Below are positions 5,465 to 64,000 of a stretch of DNA of 64,000 nt, in pieces; the stretch's first letter is position 1, and each line of letters starts with the position of its first letter. Source of the DNA: Polynucleobacter sp. MWH-Spelu-300-X4. GTDB lineage: Bacteria; Pseudomonadota; Gammaproteobacteria; Burkholderiales; Burkholderiaceae. The stretch spans positions 248,001 to 312,000 of the forward strand of contig NZ_CP061294.1 in assembly GCF_018687515.1 (NCBI RefSeq), in the 5' to 3' direction. A model generated the notes under the pieces. The model worked only from the letters and a program-made list of their open reading frames with translations. It searched no databases and was not told the origin of the DNA. Made by a program: the position numbers and the translations under genes.

Positions 5465-6652
5465 ATGTTGAATTGGGATGAAGAAACCCCAGCCGCGCCG
5501 TTAAGTAAGCCCGCACCGGTGGTAACACCGGCAGCGGCGGTTGAGAGCAATTTGTTACCTAACCGTCCGATGCCTCTACCTACGGCGTCAGCTTTTGCAC
5601 CTTCTGCAGCAGTAAATACAGAAAATGCTGCAGAGCGTCGTGTGAACGTCGCTGATAAGCGAATTATTAATGGTTCAACAGACGTGAACCAGTTGGTGCC
5701 ATTTAAATATAAGTGGGCATGGGAAAAGTATCTGGCTGGTTGCGCTAACCATTGGATGCCTCAAGAAATTAATATGACGCGCGATATTGCTCTTTGGAAA
5801 GATCCAAATGGCTTAACGGAAGATGAGCGTCGCATTATTAAGCGTAACTTGGGATTTTTCGTGACAGCCGACTCATTGGCTGCGAATAACATTGTTTTAG
5901 GTACTTATCGCCAGATTACTGCGCCCGAGTGCCGTCAATATTTATTGCGTCAGGCTTTTGAAGAGGCAATTCATACTCACGCATACCAATATATTGTTGA
6001 ATCTTTGGGGCTTGATCAGGCAGAAATCTTCAATGCGTACCATGAAGTGCCTTCGATTCGTGACAAAGATGAGTTTTTGATCCCATTTATCGATGTTTTG
6101 ACTGATCCATCTTTCAAAACAGGCACGATGGAGAATGATCAGAAGCTATTGCGCTCATTAATTGTGTTTGCTTGCATCATGGAAGGTTTGTTCTTCTATG
6201 TTGGTTTTACGCAAATTCTTGCGATGGGTCGTCAAAATAAGATGACAGGTGCTGCTGAGCAATATCAATACATTTTGCGTGATGAATCTCTTCACTGTAA
6301 TTTTGGTATCGACATGATTAACCAAATCAAGTTGGAAAATCCTCATTTATGGACGCCTGAGTTCAAAGAAGAATTGCGCAGTTTGTTTGAAAAAGCTGTA
6401 GAGCTTGAGTATCGCTACGCTGAAGACACTATGCCACGTGGGGTTCTAGGGCTTAATGCACCAATGTTCAAAGGTTACCTCCGTTACATTTGCAATCGTC
6501 GTTGCATGCAGATCGGACTCGAAGCAATGTTCCCGAATGAAGAAAATCCATTCCCATGGATGAGTGAAATGATCGACTTGAAGAAGGAAAGAAACTTCTT
6601 TGAGACACGTGTGATTGAATATCAAACTGGTGGTGCGTTGAACTGGGAGTAA
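5465..6652 (+). CDS. nrdB: Ribonucleoside-diphosphate reductase, beta subunit (class Ia)
   Basis: Di-iron/tyrosyl-radical subunit partnering NrdA. Metal ligands appear as D136, E167, H170, E240, E274 and H277 (in [24 protein letters not shown] and DESLH). The radical tyrosine is Y174, four residues after H170 as in E. coli (H118/Y122). Presence of this Tyr places it in class Ia rather than the Tyr-less Ic group. The first 65 residues are a Pro/Ala-rich extension without an obvious domain. The C-terminus ends in TGGALNWE, the expected peptide that docks into NrdA. An SD-like GGAG precedes the ATG. Confidence 0.96.
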
Positions 6653-6876: not shown

Positions 6877-7006
6877 CGGGATTCATTAGCATGCGACGTG
6901 TAGTGAGTGGCGTGCCGATGAATGGCTCGCTCACACGAAGTTGGTGTGGTCGGGTTTCTTTAATCAGTAGTATGTATCAATCACTTTCACGTGAAGGAGT
7001 GTAATT

Positions 7007-7309
7007 ATGGCAACTGCCAAGAAAAAACCTGCTGCAAAGAAACCAGCTGCTAAAAAAGTAGCTGCAAAGAAACCAGCTGCTAAGAAAGTAGCTGCTAAAA
7101 AGCCTGCTGCTAAGAAAGTAGCTGCTAAGAAGCCTGCTGCTAAAAAAGCTGCTGCTAAAAAACCAGCTGCTAAGAAAGTAGCTGCTAAGAAGCCTGCTGC
7201 TAAAAAAGCTGCTGCTAAGAAGCCAGCTGCTAAAAAAGTAGCTGCTAAGAAGCCAGCCGCTAAAAAAGCAGTTAAAAAAGCTGTTAAAAAAGCAGTAAAA
7301 AAAAAGTAA
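7007..7309 (+). CDS. Histone H1-like lysine/alanine-rich DNA-binding protein (zero-frame product)
   Basis: A protein of 100 residues built almost entirely of AAKKP / AAKKV / AAKKA repeats ending in [12 protein letters not shown]. It resembles bacterial H1-like nucleoid proteins (AlgP/Hc1-like tails), which bind DNA non-specifically through lysine-rich tails. The start ATG follows AAGGAGTG. The repeat is visible in DNA as a 15-base unit of gctgctaagaagcca type. The zero frame stops directly after an A9 run; the usual-looking C-terminus lies in the -1 frame just beyond it (separate entry). Either the gene is frameshifted or two products are made. Repeat number is likely to vary between strains. 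Confidence 0.85.
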
Positions 7310-7440
7310 GTAAGCCAGTTGCTGCCAAAAAACCGGCAGCATCTAAAAAGCCAGCTGCTAAAGCTGCCCCAGCTTCTAAAGCTAAGACAGTTTTAAATCC
7401 AGCAGCTGCTTGGCCTTTCCCAACAGGTTCACGCCCTTAA
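7297..7440 (+). other. A9 slippery site and out-of-frame C-terminal tail of the histone-like gene
   Basis: Bases 7297-7305 are nine A followed by G. In the zero frame the last codons read A AAA AAG (7300-7306) and then TAA, exactly the dnaX-type -1 slippery heptamer. Moving to the -1 frame gives 44 more codons (7306-7437, stop at 7438-7440) that continue the same composition ([16 protein letters not shown]...) and end in NPAAAWPFPTGSRP, a C-terminus I associate with Burkholderiales histone-like proteins. A perfect 7-bp hairpin (7320-7326 with 7335-7341) lies 13 bases downstream. Alternatives are transcriptional slippage on A9, a real frameshift mutation, or a homopolymer sequencing error. Confidence 0.7.
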
Positions 7441-7471
7441 TTTATTAAGAGCTGGCTCCCAAAAGGAAAAC

Positions 7472-7506
7472 AAACCCGCTAAAGTTTCGGCTCTAGCGGG
7501 TTTTTT
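7472..7506. terminator. Bidirectional Rho-independent terminator
   Basis: The inverted repeat aaacccgcta / tagcgggttt encloses a 12-base loop, with T-rich tracts on both strands. It sits between the histone-like gene and the convergent PfkB kinase gene and can serve both. Confidence 0.85.
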
Positions 7507-8510: not shown

Positions 8511-9980
8511 TTATGGGTAAAGTATTCGTACACGATAACCAGCAGACTCTTCTGGTAGTGTGAGATTGATGTTGCTCGATATTTCAGAGTTGCCATCTGC
8601 TCCCTGAGCTATCTTTTCAGGAGATGCTCTCAAGTTATCTGGTAACCAAGCGCTAGGGAAAATGATGCGCTGCGCAATTAATGTGTCATTGGCATCGGTA
8701 ACAGATAGTTCAAGAGATGGCCAGGCAACAGACGCAGCTATCTTGTTTCTGATTTGAAGTTGTAACTGACTTTGTTTTGAGTGGCCAATTTGTAGGTCGG
8801 CAAATTCAATTGCCCAAACTGAAAAATCTTTAATAGGTATGTCTTGGCAGGGTAAATAATCGCAAATTCCCTGATCTACATAAGTAAATACAGTTTGAAG
8901 TGGCGCTTGAATGCTCTCGGGAGTTTTTGCTATTAGATGTTTGATGACGTTGCGCCCTAAATAGCTAACTTGAGCTAACACGAGTAGGCTTAATACAACA
9001 GCGGCAATTACTCTTGCCCAGGTAGGTTTTTGAGAATCTTCTTTATTTAAAGTTTTTTTTTGAGCTAAGGCATTATCAGATGGCATTAATTGGCCGGTTA
9101 GGCAAACCCAACCATCGCATTCACGCCAAATATGTAACTTTAGCCAAGGTTGGTAAGTGGCAATAACTTCTTCTGCTTGCCTTGCCAAAATACCAGAAAG
9201 AACAATATGTCCATTAGGCGCAATGCGCTGACATAGAGCTGGTGCTAAAACTTGTAGAGGATTCGCTAGGATGTTGGCAACCACCACATCGTGTTGGCTG
9301 TCAGCTTTATCTTCTTCAGGCAAGAAGAAATCAACAGTGACTTCATTGCGGATAGCGTTGTCTTTGGCGGAGATAACCGCTTGCGGATCGATATCAACCC
9401 CAATTGCTGGCCCACAACCGAGGCGTTTGGCTGCAATCGCCAAGATTCCTGAGCCGCAACCGTAATCTAATAAAGTTTTAGATGCTAAATCTGGATGTTC
9501 CTCTAACCATTGCATGCATAGCTTCGTGGTTGGGTGACTACCTGTACCAAAAGCAAGGCCGGGGTCAACTGCTAAACAAACAGCGTTAGGATCGTTGGGG
9601 GCTTCGTGCCATGAGGGCACAACCCATAAACGTTGACCTACTCGGATTGGATCAAATTGAGATTGGGTTAATCGAACCCAGTCTTGTTCCTCGACAGATC
9701 TTTCTGTAGGTGGAGCAACTTGAAAACCCGCTTCACTTAATTCATTTAGGATTTCTTGGGCGTTAAGGCCTTGTTCATCGAACAGTGCTATAACTTGTGA
9801 CTGTTCCCAAGCATTGCGATCAGGCGTTAATCCGGGTTCGCCGTATAAAGGTTTTTCTTGTTCCGTATCGGCGGCGGCATCGCTAACAGAAATAGATAAG
9901 GAGCCTAGCTCCATTAAGGCATCCCCAAGGCTCTCTGCAAGATCCTCGGGTACCGTAAAAACTAATTCACGAAATGCCAT
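8511..9980 (-). CDS. prmA: Ribosomal protein L11 methyltransferase PrmA fused to a membrane-anchored DUF3426-like domain
   Basis: Residues 1-298 are PrmA, which trimethylates ribosomal protein L11. Its SAM-binding motif is LLDYGCGSGILAIAA (from about 170), the substrate-side motif is NILANPLQVLAP (from about 236), and the domain ends in CDGWVCLTGQL as PrmA should. The frame then runs on for about 190 residues. A short charged linker is followed by a transmembrane segment (about 321-340) and a region resembling DUF3426, normally the C-terminal part of a separate zinc-ribbon protein encoded next to prmA. No CxxC zinc ribbon is present. A T9 run at 9053-9061 (A9 in the message) lies within the linker, so a sequencing or natural indel could alter the join. 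An in-frame ATG at the junction might also permit separate translation of the second part. Confidence 0.88.
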   Translation of the reverse strand: MAFRELVFTVPEDLAESLGDALMELGSLSISVSDAAADTEQEKPLYGEPGLTPDRNAWEQSQVIALFDEQGLNAQEILNELSEAGFQVAPPTERSVEEQDWVRLTQSQFDPIRVGQRLWVVPSWHEAPNDPNAVCLAVDPGLAFGTGSHPTTKLCMQWLEEHPDLASKTLLDYGCGSGILAIAAKRLGCGPAIGVDIDPQAVISAKDNAIRNEVTVDFFLPEEDKADSQHDVVVANILANPLQVLAPALCQRIAPNGHIVLSGILARQAEEVIATYQPWLKLHIWRECDGWVCLTGQLMPSDNALAQKKTLNKEDSQKPTWARVIAAVVLSLLVLAQVSYLGRNVIKHLIAKTPESIQAPLQTVFTYVDQGICDYLPCQDIPIKDFSVWAIEFADLQIGHSKQSQLQLQIRNKIAASVAWPSLELSVTDANDTLIAQRIIFPSAWLPDNLRASPEKIAQGADGNSEISSNINLTLPEESAGYRVRILYP

Positions 9981-59241: not shown

Positions 59242-60120
59242 TTGAATATTCTTATTACTGGCGCAGGTGGTTTTTTGGGAAGTGCTCTAGCACGTAGACT
59301 TGGTGAAATGGATCATCAGGTATCTTTATTGGTTAGAAAAAATACCGATCTTTATCGATTAACTGATTTATCTATCTACAAGATAGGGAGATGTGAGACC
59401 GATCAGGAAATTACTCAATTTATTAGAGAAGTATACCCTGATATCGTCATTCACACTGCTTGTTGTTATGGGAGAAATGGAGAATCGATAATAAAAATCA
59501 TTGACTCCAATCTTCGGTTCGGTGCATTGATATTAAATGTCATCAATAGCCTTGAGAAAAAAGTTTCTTTTATCAATACCGGGACTGTCTTATCTAGGGA
59601 TGTAAGTTTGTATGCTCTAACAAAAATACAGTTTCAAGAGTTGGGGATCTATGAAACTAAGCACTCAAATAGAAATACCCAATTTATTAATATTAAACTC
59701 CAGCACATGTATGGGCCGGGGGATAGTGCCTCTAAATTTACTTCGTATGTAATTAATGCATGCAGGAATAACGTATCCAAATTACCCTTATCGCTCGGTG
59801 AGCAAACAAGGGATTTTGTTTATATTGATGATGTAGTTGATGCTTACATAACGATTTTAGAAAACTTATCAAAATTAGAGAAGGCTCAACATATTGAATT
59901 GGGATCAGGTGAAGCCCCCTGTTTGAGAGATTTTGTAGAAACAGTTCATAAATTGACCAGTTCGAAAACGGAGCTTTTATTTGGTCAAATACCCTATCGT
60001 GAAAATGATGTTATGTGTATGGTGGCTAATATAGATAAGCTAAAAAGTATGGGGTGGATTCCAAAGTTTGATCTTGAAGCGGGAATCAAAAAAACAATTG
60101 AAATGGATGTGGCGAAATGA
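59242..60120 (+). CDS. RfbS/RfbJ-like CDP-3,6-dideoxyhexose synthase (probable CDP-paratose synthase)
   Basis: Extended SDR of 292 residues. It starts [20 protein letters not shown] (TTG start). [58 protein letters not shown] and IELGSGEA strongly resemble Salmonella RfbS (paratose synthase) and, less, RfbJ (abequose synthase). It reduces the 4-keto group of CDP-4-keto-3,6-dideoxyglucose. The stereochemistry cannot be read from sequence. The next gene, an RfbE-like epimerase, favours paratose. Confidence 0.8.
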
Positions 60121-61148
60121 GATTATTGATTACTGGCGGTTGTGGTTTTTTAGGGAGCAATCTTGCTTCTGATGCACTGGCTCGTGGAGATGAATTGGTT
60201 GTGTTTGATAGCCTATATAGAAATGGATCAAGAGAAAATCTAATATGGCTTCAAACCCAAGGTAATTTTAAATTTGAACATGGAGATATTCGAAATCAGA
60301 ATGACATTACTAGAGTAATTCAGGATTTTCAGCCTGATGCGATCTTCCATTTGGCTGGTCAAGTAGCAATGACAACATCAATTGCGAATCCTAGAATGGA
60401 TTTTGAAGTTAATGTTCTTGGAACTGTAAATTTACTAGAAGCAGTCCGCCAATATTGCCCAAATGCAGCAGTGATTTATTCTTCAACGAATAAGGTGTAT
60501 GGTGATTTAGAGCAGTATTCTTATGTTGAAACTACAACACGATATAAGTGCGTAGAAAAGCCAAATGGATTTGATGAGCTTACGCAATTGGATTTTCATT
60601 CACCATATGGATGTTCTAAGGGTGCGGCTGAACAATATATGCTTGACTATGCCCGCACCTTTGGAATAAAGACTGTAGTTTTCCGACACTCGTCAATGTA
60701 TGGAGGGAGGCAATTTGCTACTTATGATCAAGGTTGGGTAGGTTGGTTTTGTATGAAGGCACTAGAAACTAGCAAGGGAAATCTGAAAGATAAATTTACA
60801 ATATCGGGGAACGGGAAGCAGGTCAGAGATGTGCTTCATGCAGAGGATATGAAACAGCTTTATGGAAATGCATTGATTCATATTGATAAAGCTTCTGGAC
60901 AAGTTTTCAACATCGGTGGTGGCTCTGAAAATAGCTTGTCATTACTAGAATTATTTGCATTACTTGAAAAATCAATCGAAATAAATCTTGAATATATGAA
61001 ATTACCAGCTCGTAAAAGTGATCAGCGTGTTTTTATTGCTGATATAGATAAAGCAAAAAAAATATTCTCTTGGGAGCCTAAGATCAATATACAGGATGGT
61101 ATAGCACGTATGGTTGAATGGATTAACTTGCGCCAAGATAATAAATAG
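60117..61148 (+). CDS. rfbE: RfbE-like CDP-paratose 2-epimerase (CDP-tyvelose-forming)
   Basis: Converts CDP-paratose to CDP-tyvelose. The 343-residue protein shows [86 protein letters not shown] and [19 protein letters not shown]. These near-match the Salmonella group D RfbE/Tyv protein along the whole length as I recall it. It overlaps the preceding gene by 4 bases. Confidence 0.9.
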
Positions 61149-61195
61149 CAATAGACTAATACTTAAAAATATTTAATATTTATACCAAACCTAAG

Positions 61196-62059
61196 ATGTA
61201 CCATAGTATTGAATTAACACAGCACCATGAAGTTATAAAGAAATATCTTGAAAAGAAAATAAATATAAAAATTTATTCTGGAAGCCGAAGTCTTATTGAG
61301 GTCATTAAGTATGTAAGAAAAATAGAAAAAAATGATGAAATTATAATAAATACATTTAGGCATGACTTCAGAACAATTGCTGTAATTACAGCTGGGTTTA
61401 TATTTGGTAAGAATATTAATGTCGGCATACATTGCGCTAATCAATTTCTGGGGCGTGAGTATATTGGCTTAAGAAAATATTTAAAAATTAAAGAAAAATC
61501 CTTAAAAAATATCTTTAAATATTTTCTTTTTATAGTAATAAATTATCTGATAACTTGGTATCTTAAAAAGATGGCGAAGCCATTTGGTTATATCTCTGAA
61601 ATCAACAAATTGTTTTTAAAAGAGAAAATAGAAATTTCAGATTTATCAAAATATATCTCTGACCCAGATTCAAATTTTGAAATATATAGGGGTTTTGATA
61701 GTGATGAAAAGTTATTAATTTATGGTCGACTTGACGATCAAAGAATTTCGTTTGAAAAACTTAAAAAATTAATAAAAATTGTTAGTGATAGTGAAGTTGA
61801 GCTGAATGTACTTGTTGATAGTATGAGCGACATACCCAAAATAATACAAGAGTCAAAAAAAATAAAAATATATGTAGAGAAAGGCTACTCATATGAAGTA
61901 CTCGGCAAATATATTGCATCATGTGATTATATAGTAGATATAACAAATGAAGCTAAAATTAGGCGTGGGATGAATTTTGAACAATATGGAAAGACGATTA
62001 TGTCAGGCATGAATTTAGACTCAGTAATATATAACAAAAAAATAATTAAAATAAATTAA
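61196..62059 (+). CDS. Possible GT-B-type glycosyltransferase, unrecognised family
   Basis: A 287-residue protein, very rich in Ile/Lys/Asn and in AT-ending codons. The C-terminal half reads like a nucleotide-sugar domain (EKLLIYGRLDDQRISFEKLKKLIKIV and YSYEVLGKYIASCDYIVDIT). A hydrophobic patch near residues 105-125 suggests membrane contact. No family-level match is recognised. Position between sugar-nucleotide genes and Wzx suits a transferase assembling the repeat. It lacks a clear SD. Confidence 0.5.
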   Translation: MYHSIELTQHHEVIKKYLEKKINIKIYSGSRSLIEVIKYVRKIEKNDEIIINTFRHDFRTIAVITAGFIFGKNINVGIHCANQFLGREYIGLRKYLKIKEKSLKNIFKYFLFIVINYLITWYLKKMAKPFGYISEINKLFLKEKIEISDLSKYISDPDSNFEIYRGFDSDEKLLIYGRLDDQRISFEKLKKLIKIVSDSEVELNVLVDSMSDIPKIIQESKKIKIYVEKGYSYEVLGKYIASCDYIVDITNEAKIRRGMNFEQYGKTIMSGMNLDSVIYNKKIIKIN

Positions 62060-63117
62060 TGCCAGAAAAAAAATATATATATCCACTTATCATTGTAAGT
62101 GGGTCATTAGTAGCCTACATAGTAAATTTTTACTTATTATCAATATACCCAGTTAATTTTTCAGAGTATATGATTGCATTTGGAATCGCATCAATTTGTG
62201 CGGATCTTGGATATAGAACACGAGCGATCGTTCAGGAGAGAAGTATCCATCTTCGCGAGTTATTTTACAATAGAGTAGCTTACCTTGCATTATCAAGCAT
62301 ATTAATTTTAACAATAAAAACAATAATAGATATAAAAATATCAATAATTTTAATTGTGGTGCCTGAAATAATAATTGCGAATGTAATAGGGTATGCAATA
62401 TCTATTTATTTATCAACTACTAACCGGTATTCGGAGTCAATTAAAACAGATTTTATATCTAAAATAATTTCAGCATTATTAAGGTTGATAATAATAATAA
62501 ATGGAATTTTTTTGGCTGAAGTTTTTTCTGAGAATGTGTTATATATATTAATTGCAATAATTTTAACTGTAATAGTTGATGGATTTTATAATAAAAAAAT
62601 AAAGCTTGAATGGATATTAATTAATTTTGATGGTTATTCAGTTTCATCAGCAATTTTTATGTTTATAATATGGGTTAACTATCATCATTTATTGAGTATA
62701 TTGAGTCCAAAAGAGATTAGAGCAATTGGATATATTTTAACAATTCACTCAATATTCTATACATATTTTCCAATAATTCGAAGAAATTTTACTTCAGAAA
62801 AAATTAATATTTATTTTAAATTATTTGTTATTTTAACAATTATATCGGGAAGTATAATTTTAACATTTGATAAAGATATGGAAATCGGGTTTATTTTTAG
62901 TATCCTATTGATTTTTATCATAAGATTTTATTCTGTTAATAAAGAATATGATTTTTTAAAACTCGATAAATACAATGTTATTGTATTACATAGACTGGCA
63001 TTGTTGCCAACAGTTTTTTTAATATATAAAGGGAAAGTTTTCTTTAGTGTTTTACTATGGCTAATCGTTGAGTTTATATTTATTAAAATAAAAAAAAATG
63101 ATTTCCATATCAAATAA
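62059..63117 (+). CDS. Multi-spanning membrane protein, probable Wzx-like O-antigen flippase
   Basis: A 352-residue protein with about ten hydrophobic segments, one base overlapping the preceding stop. It is shorter than usual Wzx (about 400-480), so it might be a truncated or divergent flippase. Sequence motifs are not diagnostic. The assignment rests on topology and position in an O-antigen operon that otherwise lacks a flippase. Extremely AT-rich. Confidence 0.5.
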   Translation: MPEKKYIYPLIIVSGSLVAYIVNFYLLSIYPVNFSEYMIAFGIASICADLGYRTRAIVQERSIHLRELFYNRVAYLALSSILILTIKTIIDIKISIILIVVPEIIIANVIGYAISIYLSTTNRYSESIKTDFISKIISALLRLIIIINGIFLAEVFSENVLYILIAIILTVIVDGFYNKKIKLEWILINFDGYSVSSAIFMFIIWVNYHHLLSILSPKEIRAIGYILTIHSIFYTYFPIIRRNFTSEKINIYFKLFVILTIISGSIILTFDKDMEIGFIFSILLIFIIRFYSVNKEYDFLKLDKYNVIVLHRLALLPTVFLIYKGKVFFSVLLWLIVEFIFIKIKKNDFHIK

Positions 63118-64000
63118 AAATATAAAATCTATATTTCACACATTTGGAATAATTATTTGTGCCTTCAGCATTTTATCGCATACAATAGAATTGCAGCTAG
63201 CATGCATATCAATACTAATATTTAAAAAAGATATTAGGGTAAGGGTAATAAAATATAAGATATTGATTGCAGCCATATTATTTTTTATAACAATTATATT
63301 TAGCATGAATCAAAGTAAATATGTTGGATTTATATATATATATGTATCAAATTATTGGCTGACATTGATTGCTACTGAGGAAAAGATGAAAATCAATATA
63401 AATTCAATAATTATATTGTTGATATTAACATCTGTTACAAATTTTTTAAATTTCACACCAGTCGATTTTTATAGTCCAGTATTTAAAGATTCAGGATTTT
63501 TATCAGATACATATTATTCAAGGACTATTGGCTTTTGGGGAAATCCCAATTTGACAGCATTTATTATTGGTATTTTTTCATTCACTTGTATTGCAAACAG
63601 TAAAAATAGAGTTGTACTTTTCGTTAGTTATATTTCTCAAATACTGTCGGCATTTACAAATATAAGTAGAACTATGATGGTAAGTTCTATGATCGTAGTG
63701 CTGCGAAATAAATTTAAGTTGGGAATCTTTTTGGGCTTAACAGTTTTTATGTATTTGATCTATCATGGTTTTTTGATTGATAATAATGTTTTTATTACAA
63801 GATTATTTTCTGATTTTGATTCATTAAGTGAACGAATTGAAGTTTATGATAATGTTATAAATAATGTAAATGTTGAATTCTTTGATTCTGATATATCCGC
63901 CTTAAGTTATTCTTTCGGTTATGGCGGTTTATTATTTCCAATTACGGCTTTGCTTTATTCTTTTTATAAGAAAAATTTATTAATTTTATTTATATCAATT
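63098..64000 (+). CDS. Wzy/O-antigen polymerase-like membrane protein, partial
   Basis: An open frame from ATG 63098 to the window end (301 codons, no stop), overlapping the preceding gene by 20 bases. Hydrophobic throughout. The segments RTIGFWGNPNLTAF and ISRTMMVSSMIV match the pattern of Wzy/WaaL-type polymerases and ligases ('GNPN' and 'SRT' near membrane helices). It would polymerise O-units, with length set by the Wzz upstream. It is cut at its C-terminus. Confidence 0.65.
   Translation, partial: MISISNKNIKSIFHTFGIIICAFSILSHTIELQLACISILIFKKDIRVRVIKYKILIAAILFFITIIFSMNQSKYVGFIYIYVSNYWLTLIATEEKMKININSIIILLILTSVTNFLNFTPVDFYSPVFKDSGFLSDTYYSRTIGFWGNPNLTAFIIGIFSFTCIANSKNRVVLFVSYISQILSAFTNISRTMMVSSMIVVLRNKFKLGIFLGLTVFMYLIYHGFLIDNNVFITRLFSDFDSLSERIEVYDNVINNVNVEFFDSDISALSYSFGYGGLLFPITALLYSFYKKNLLILFISI

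Follow-up and report, generated by a model that had tools for sequence, protein, structure and literature searches.

A frame break at an A9 run, kept across the genus Polynucleobacter, probably lets one histone H1-like gene encode two protein forms

Background

In Escherichia coli dnaX, -1 frameshifting occurs on the heptamer A_AAA_AAG in a cell with a sole tRNA-Lys; the Thermus thermophilus gene relies on slippage at an A run, with stops in both other frames, and slippage there gives the short form. A few dnaX genes have the reversed layout, the long form being made by the shift and the zero-frame stop lying right after the site, and cso2 is reported to lack an upstream SD as well (PMC5009743, in the sections drawn upon here). 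The stem-loop of dnaX-type sites ranges from 5 to 8 nt downstream (excerpts of PMC4066793). In tssM1 of Citrobacter rodentium a zero-frame stop soon follows a run of 11 A's, at which transcriptional slippage restores a long C-terminus; both forms are needed, at a short:long ratio of 3-4:1, and the portion of the source used here describes a poly-A tract in only one other tssM (PMC4256274). The chlD and magnesium chelatase genes carry A-rich slip sites, shift mostly by -1 and yield two products, which are enzyme subunits (PMC3711429; PMC9227772, both in part). Chelatase gene cassettes placed in E. coli gave 10, 40 and 63% frameshifting with 7, 9 and 11 A's, in an assay, as excerpted, that does not separate the transcriptional and ribosomal routes (PMC3711429). 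In E. coli and Buchnera, transcriptional insertions become exponentially more frequent as runs lengthen, with no frame rescue reported in the part of that study used here (PMC5574713).

The Polynucleobacter gene described here shares with E. coli dnaX the heptamer and the sole tRNA-Lys, and with the Thermus gene, in one group of relatives carrying an in-frame A10, the stops in both other frames. It differs from dnaX in that no upstream SD was found, that its product is H1-like and that both layouts occur within one genus. The stop soon after the A run recalls tssM1, but the protein is another one, the run is not A11, and it is found genus-wide. The likeness to the chelatase genes lies in the slip site and the two products, here predicted, not in the gene. 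In repeat composition and probable DNA binding the product resembles the Lys-Ala-Pro proteins HC2/HctB and AlgP/PhaF (PMC9239181, PMC9060813), and KPAA-repeat peptides of AlgP are described as binding DNA (PMC9239181); the sections of these two papers used here mention no frameshift, whereas the WPFPTG tail that concerns us was seen in Polynucleobacter and related genera. P. duraquae is named in a paper on chelatase frameshifting (PMC9227772, in part). Our literature search returned nothing on WPFPTG and nothing joining Polynucleobacter, frameshift and histone; among titles on programmed frameshifting or transcriptional slippage in Polynucleobacter none concerned histones, and the main text of the GeneTack paper (PMC3711429) has no mention of histone or Polynucleobacter.

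Results

The window is the whole 64,000-nucleotide stretch of DNA analysed, from Polynucleobacter sp. MWH-Spelu-300-X4. The features at and around the junction are:

6994..6999, + strand: probable ribosome-binding site AAGGAG, read from the sequence and assigned by its position 7 nt before the ATG of the histone-like gene
7007..7309, + strand: zero-frame ORF, translated as a short form of 100 aa, a Lys/Ala/Pro repeat protein (Pfam HC2, histone H1-like)
7297..7305, + strand: A9 run, the putative slippage site, read from the sequence (A8-A10 at the junction in 139/173 genus loci)
7300..7306, + strand: heptamer A_AAA_AAG, in phase for tandem -1 slippage (columns -6 to 0 invariant in 140/140)
7307..7309, + strand: zero-frame stop TAA (TAA in 139/139 loci)
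7311..7313, + strand: second TAA, the stop of the +1 frame in TAA-N-TAA (columns +5 to +7 invariant in 140/140)
7306..7440, + strand: -1-frame tail of 44 aa ending WPFPTGSRP, by translation and pN/pS
7320..7341, + strand: 7-bp hairpin with an 8-nt loop, 13 nt 3' of the heptamer
7469..7506, + strand (minus strand in one listing): terminator-like inverted repeat between convergent genes

The ORF ends with the codons GTA AAA AAA AAG TAA, the G of the junction being nucleotide 7306. Its product starts MATAKKK(PAAKK)n and ends KAVKKK; the C-terminal residues of the tail (7306-7440) are NPAAAWPFPTGSRP, followed by a stop. The first-pass annotation, made from the letters alone, had read here a zero frame stopping right after A9 at an exact A_AAA_AAG, a 44-residue -1-frame tail ending WPFPTGSRP and a 7-bp hairpin 3' of the site: coordinates and phase were verified on the sequence, the tail by translation, and the hairpin is real (7320-7326 / 7335-7341). 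The neighbours of the gene are taken by us to be nrdB (5465-6652, 5' of the histone-like ORF) and a sugar kinase. Elsewhere in the window, positions 60001-64000 have a GC content of 28% against about 39-45% in the remainder, perhaps marking an island.

The short form matches the Pfam HC2 model (PF07382) with 57 bits (cut-off 40), a score to be read with caution as the sequence is of low complexity and the Extensin model is also a weak match. It is the only HC2 match found in the genome. Against the NCBIfam model NF038053 (hist_H1_lk_Burk) the short form scored 45.6 and the in-frame form of a relative (L197) 46.5, below the cut-off of 80.

That the end of the tail is conserved had been guessed from the window; a degenerate WPFPTG pattern is in fact present in 170 of the 186 genomes of the genus and in 140 of the 144 of good quality. 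Allowing mismatches raises the count to 172/186, with G033 and G125, among the 16 genomes lacking a match, each showing one mismatch. We analysed 173 loci of the genus, 157 with a recognisable start and 16 without. A junction of A8-A10, G and TAA with the tail at -1 occurs in 139 of the 173, each from another genome; the comparison of run lengths among relatives that the annotation had called for finds the same junction as in the window, beyond what chance would give. It makes up 128 of the 157 started loci (A9 in 119, A8 in 8, A10 in 1). Among the other started loci, 25 are in frame, two (L019 and L050) combine A8 with a +1 tail, L132 has an upstream break, and L054 shows a separate -1 break at A6 G TAG, 3' of an in-frame A10. 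The 16 loci that lack a start comprise 11 with the A8/A9 junction, L137 and L201 with A10, a cut in-frame gene (L020), L202, in which the run is broken to A6 and the tail substituted, and L003, with A9 and an extra A downstream.

In L003 the A9 junction is kept and the extra A closes the -1 frame ahead of WPFPTG, leaving the same 28-aa open frame as in L271 of the second set described below. L202, from genome G033, keeps the heptamer with A6 but has a tail reading WPSPTG and Glu codons replacing Lys in its repeats; to judge by these changes, the gene looks as if it were decaying.

A second set of loci, overlapping the first, was drawn from records matched by the neighbouring kinase, whose closest records are a Polynucleobacter MAG (90%), P. 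cosmopolitanus and strain AM-26B4 (both 87%); tail frame and run only were scored. Of its 38 loci from Polynucleobacter and near relatives, 24 combine A9 with a tail frame that closes within 59 codons (including P. necessarius PPGSP2); A8 is found in 3, via GCT, and also in P. hirudinilacicola (L269), there in the L019 context. In five, which include P. kasalickyi and P. rarus, A10 stands in the tail frame; the P. sphagniphilus locus (L273) is in frame, L290 is without a long run, and P. aenigmaticus (L271) has the 28-aa frame. In L276 and L288 the motif was not found within the DNA stretch examined.

In-frame A10 followed by GTAGTTAA is confined to one group plus L051, 15 of the 173 loci in all; the first-pass annotation had held that in-frame A10 in all relatives would mean a sequencing error or a simple mutation, and the relatives do not bear this out. 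In all 15, a stop comes 4 codons on with one A fewer and 6 codons on with one A more; the count includes L132, with its own upstream break, and L137 and L201, whose starts are not on the contig. By analogy with the Thermus arrangement, slippage at these loci would make the short form, a mirror image of the A9 layout. A further 13 of the 157 started loci (the L002 group and a few others) are in frame without the A10 layout and, from their reading frames, probably make only the long form, so that not every lineage needs the short one.

Outside the genus, a pattern AAWPFPTG is found in 268 of 299 genomes of the family and 16 of 25 genera, 40 of the 299 genomes being from the same genus. Of 50 outside loci, 49 carry the tail within an open frame, 74-262 codons long with start codons left aside; the remaining one, L154, is another protein. 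In 42 further loci the motif was present in 38, with an open frame of at least 77 codons in 36 and a shorter one in 2. The in-frame gene is most likely ancestral, judging from these frames, and since the tail is in an open frame in related genera the break would have arisen within the Polynucleobacter lineage. Some H1-like genes of other genera, too, contain an in-frame A8, for example GAAAAAAAAGTAGTAG in L222, and such runs are a possible precursor state. At L154 (1491-3023, minus strand), in another genus of the family, an unrelated 511-aa ORF ends LDPAAAWPFPTGGAK, with the same C-terminal motif; it matched no Pfam family at E 0.01, and we presume it to be ParB-like.

In a tree of nrdB, built from 160 rows and 435 columns and with stars on 17 of its 156 inner branches, shifted rows are spread over the whole genus part; they include the earliest branch of the genus, the main groups and the window itself (support 86, not starred). 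The fewest changes between shifted and in-frame states on this tree are 7, outgroups and odd loci not counted. Pairs of shifted loci have nrdB identities down to 75%, and down to 43% at third positions (differing at up to 57%); the break is kept in 139/173 loci over about 8.8 substitutions per site of the tree. At the level of sequence, offset, run, stop and tail are shown to be conserved over the depth of the genus.

The tail is under protein-level selection in the -1 frame only. In six length groups, its pN/pS is 0.12-0.47 in that frame; the other two frames give 0.70-2.13 or an undefined ratio (L054 and one length group with 3 distinct sequences are left out). In the junction AAAAAAG TAA N TAA, all 140 loci agree at columns -6 to +2 and again at +5 to +7, and 139 agree at column +3, L054 having TAG; both other frames are closed by TAA-N-TAA in 139/140 and by TAG-N-TAA in L054. 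L202, outside the 140, has lost the second stop. Taken alone, this column conservation is modest evidence, nearby degenerate sites being quite conserved too.

Codon choice bears on the run itself. The Ala codon before it is GCA in 103 of 111 cases, against 42 of 950 for Ala before AAA elsewhere in the genes (GCT 886, GCC 22), and KKK is coded AAA AAA AAG in 128/128 junctions and 0/412 times elsewhere; these counts are not independent, as rows share ancestry and repeat expansion inflates the 'elsewhere' figures. No other A run longer than 7 exists in the 128 ORFs. Where substitution has altered run length the offset is kept (among the 128, 8 A8 via GCT and one A10 via GAA). On this evidence there is a preference for the run at a synonymous position, and since the heptamer needs only seven letters, yet synonymous choice lengthens the run, selection appears to reach for A9. 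Two marks of a programmed transcriptional slippage site are found here: a homopolymer of about 8-9 or more, in this case A8-A10, conserved beyond codon need (139/173, with the GCA bias), and stops close to the run in the non-productive frames (139/140, and 15/15 of the A10 loci). None of the remaining nine A9/A10 runs of the genome is followed by G.

Re-initiation within the tail was considered and rejected: ATG is absent from the tail frame in 139/139 loci, and GTG or TTG, present in 111/139, comes no earlier than codon 16 in 104 of these.

Discussion

We consider it likely that the A9 run is a selected, programmed frame transition by which one gene gives two forms of an H1-like nucleoid protein, one of 100 aa ending KKK and one of 144 aa with the ancestral WPFPTG tail. 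A fraction of passages through the run would slip and so regain the tail frame. We lean slightly to an RNA polymerase that adds one A and gives an A10 mRNA; -1 ribosomal slippage on A_AAA_AAG, helped by the sole tRNA-Lys UUU and the downstream hairpin, would contribute or, less likely, be the main route. DNA binding would fall to the repeat part, and the short tail would contact a partner or the protein itself, the conserved WPFPTG end suggesting a docking peptide, so that the ratio of forms would tune nucleoid packing. That the annotation's reading of two C-termini is supported rests on the conserved offset, the purifying selection in the -1 frame, the run-lengthening codon bias and the conserved zero-frame stop; its wording needs amending in that the two histone forms are with and without a tail, not with two different tails. 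Counting against a programmed transition are the 25 of 157 loci in frame, L019 and L050 at +1, and the odd arrangements of L003, L054 and L132.

The annotation had also called the site dnaX-like and had named programmed frameshifting or transcriptional slippage as the route, either of which may operate. The heptamer is in phase at the shifted loci, and the stem spacing is dnaX-like in most relatives: a stem with a 7-nt spacer and at least 6 of 7 pairs is present in 112/139 loci. In the window itself it begins 13 nt away, and no SD-like 4-mer was found within 22 nt before the heptamer in any of the 139. The window's genome has 35 tRNA matches (4, of 82-99 nt, untyped), and ARAGORN, run on 30 loci, gave a single tRNA-Lys gene, UUU. 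Given 61 distinct junctions aligned with MAFFT, RNAalifold returned no consensus structure (energy 0), and the hairpin was assessed by synonymous shuffles: 36 of the 62 distinct sequences form one of at least 7 bp, compared with 331 of 1860 shuffles, and the folding signal is modest (mean z -0.88 over the 62, -2.18 for the window).

A mainly dnaX-type -1 ribosomal frameshift, with faithful transcription at A9, is possible though on the improbable side, and its probability overlaps with that of the preferred reading. Besides heptamer, tRNA and stem, it can call upon the offset kept in A8 variants and upon L202, which keeps the heptamer with only A6, although L202 also carries a substituted tail. 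Any A7 plus G run at this offset yields the heptamer automatically, and it stands in phase elsewhere in 17 of the 128 ORFs, so that it is not unique to the site; moreover the tail in L019 and L050 is unreachable by -1 slippage. The choice of A9 rather than A8, the mirror layout with A10, these two loci and the missing SD-like motif put transcription slightly ahead; we slightly favour it, and ribosomal slippage may contribute or dominate.

Slippage may also be a 'saviour' without adaptive value, as has been suggested for poly(A) tracts in endosymbionts of insects: a base loss in an ancestral A10 would have been tolerated, enough full-length protein being made, and the short form would be a by-product. 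The open in-frame gene of related genera, the several in-frame lineages of the genus and the mirror A10 group all fit this scenario, which we nevertheless regard as unlikely, because a one-base change would restore the frame and yet the break persists in 139/173 loci over the 8.8 or so nrdB substitutions per site, because synonymous choice makes the run longer, and because the stops of both other frames are kept (TAA-N-TAA in 139/140). Phase variation, with DNA-level slippage toggling the tail in subpopulations, would suit a homopolymer inside a coding region, but the three phases are not sampled among genomes (139/173 at -1, 2 at +1) and in-frame A10 runs lie in one group and L051; we hold it to be very improbable. 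Homopolymers are error-prone in sequencing; an error of sequencing or assembly, or a dead tail, is nonetheless refuted by the recurrence of the A8-A10/TAA junction in 139 loci from different genomes and by the conservation of the tail at the protein level.

A second A9 run of the window, at 9053-9061 on the minus strand, falls in the linker of an ORF (8511-9980) that, by Pfam, fuses PrmA to DUF3426. Of 39 loci including the window, 34 are fused, with A9 in 30, A7 in 3 and no run in 1. Adding or removing one A leads in 28 of the 30 to a stop within 4-12 codons, mostly 5 and 6. Codon evidence is weak here, since AAA (75% of Lys) and CAA (82% of Gln) are already common elsewhere in these ORFs. 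The 5 unfused loci are without exception members of the A10 histone group, a DUF3426 match not being found in 2 of them. As a speculation that we judge unlikely, short poly(A) runs in Polynucleobacter would be tunable two-isoform devices: the mirror A9 and A10 histone layouts, with the short form templated by A9 and the long one by A10 and the other made by slippage, would yield the same pair of proteins, the prmA-DUF3426 run would act likewise for a ribosomal-protein methyltransferase, and slippage, perhaps ATP-sensitive, would set the ratios of nucleoid and ribosome proteins together.

If the programmed transition is real, Polynucleobacter would have a genus-wide recoding site in a bacterial chromatin-like protein, a small gene giving isoforms that differ by a conserved tail, which an annotation of the zero frame only would miss. 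The natural panel of A8, A9, A10, in-frame and broken loci would allow direct tests of the mechanism and of what the tail is for. A frame break at an A run could then be not only kept but re-used, in both directions.
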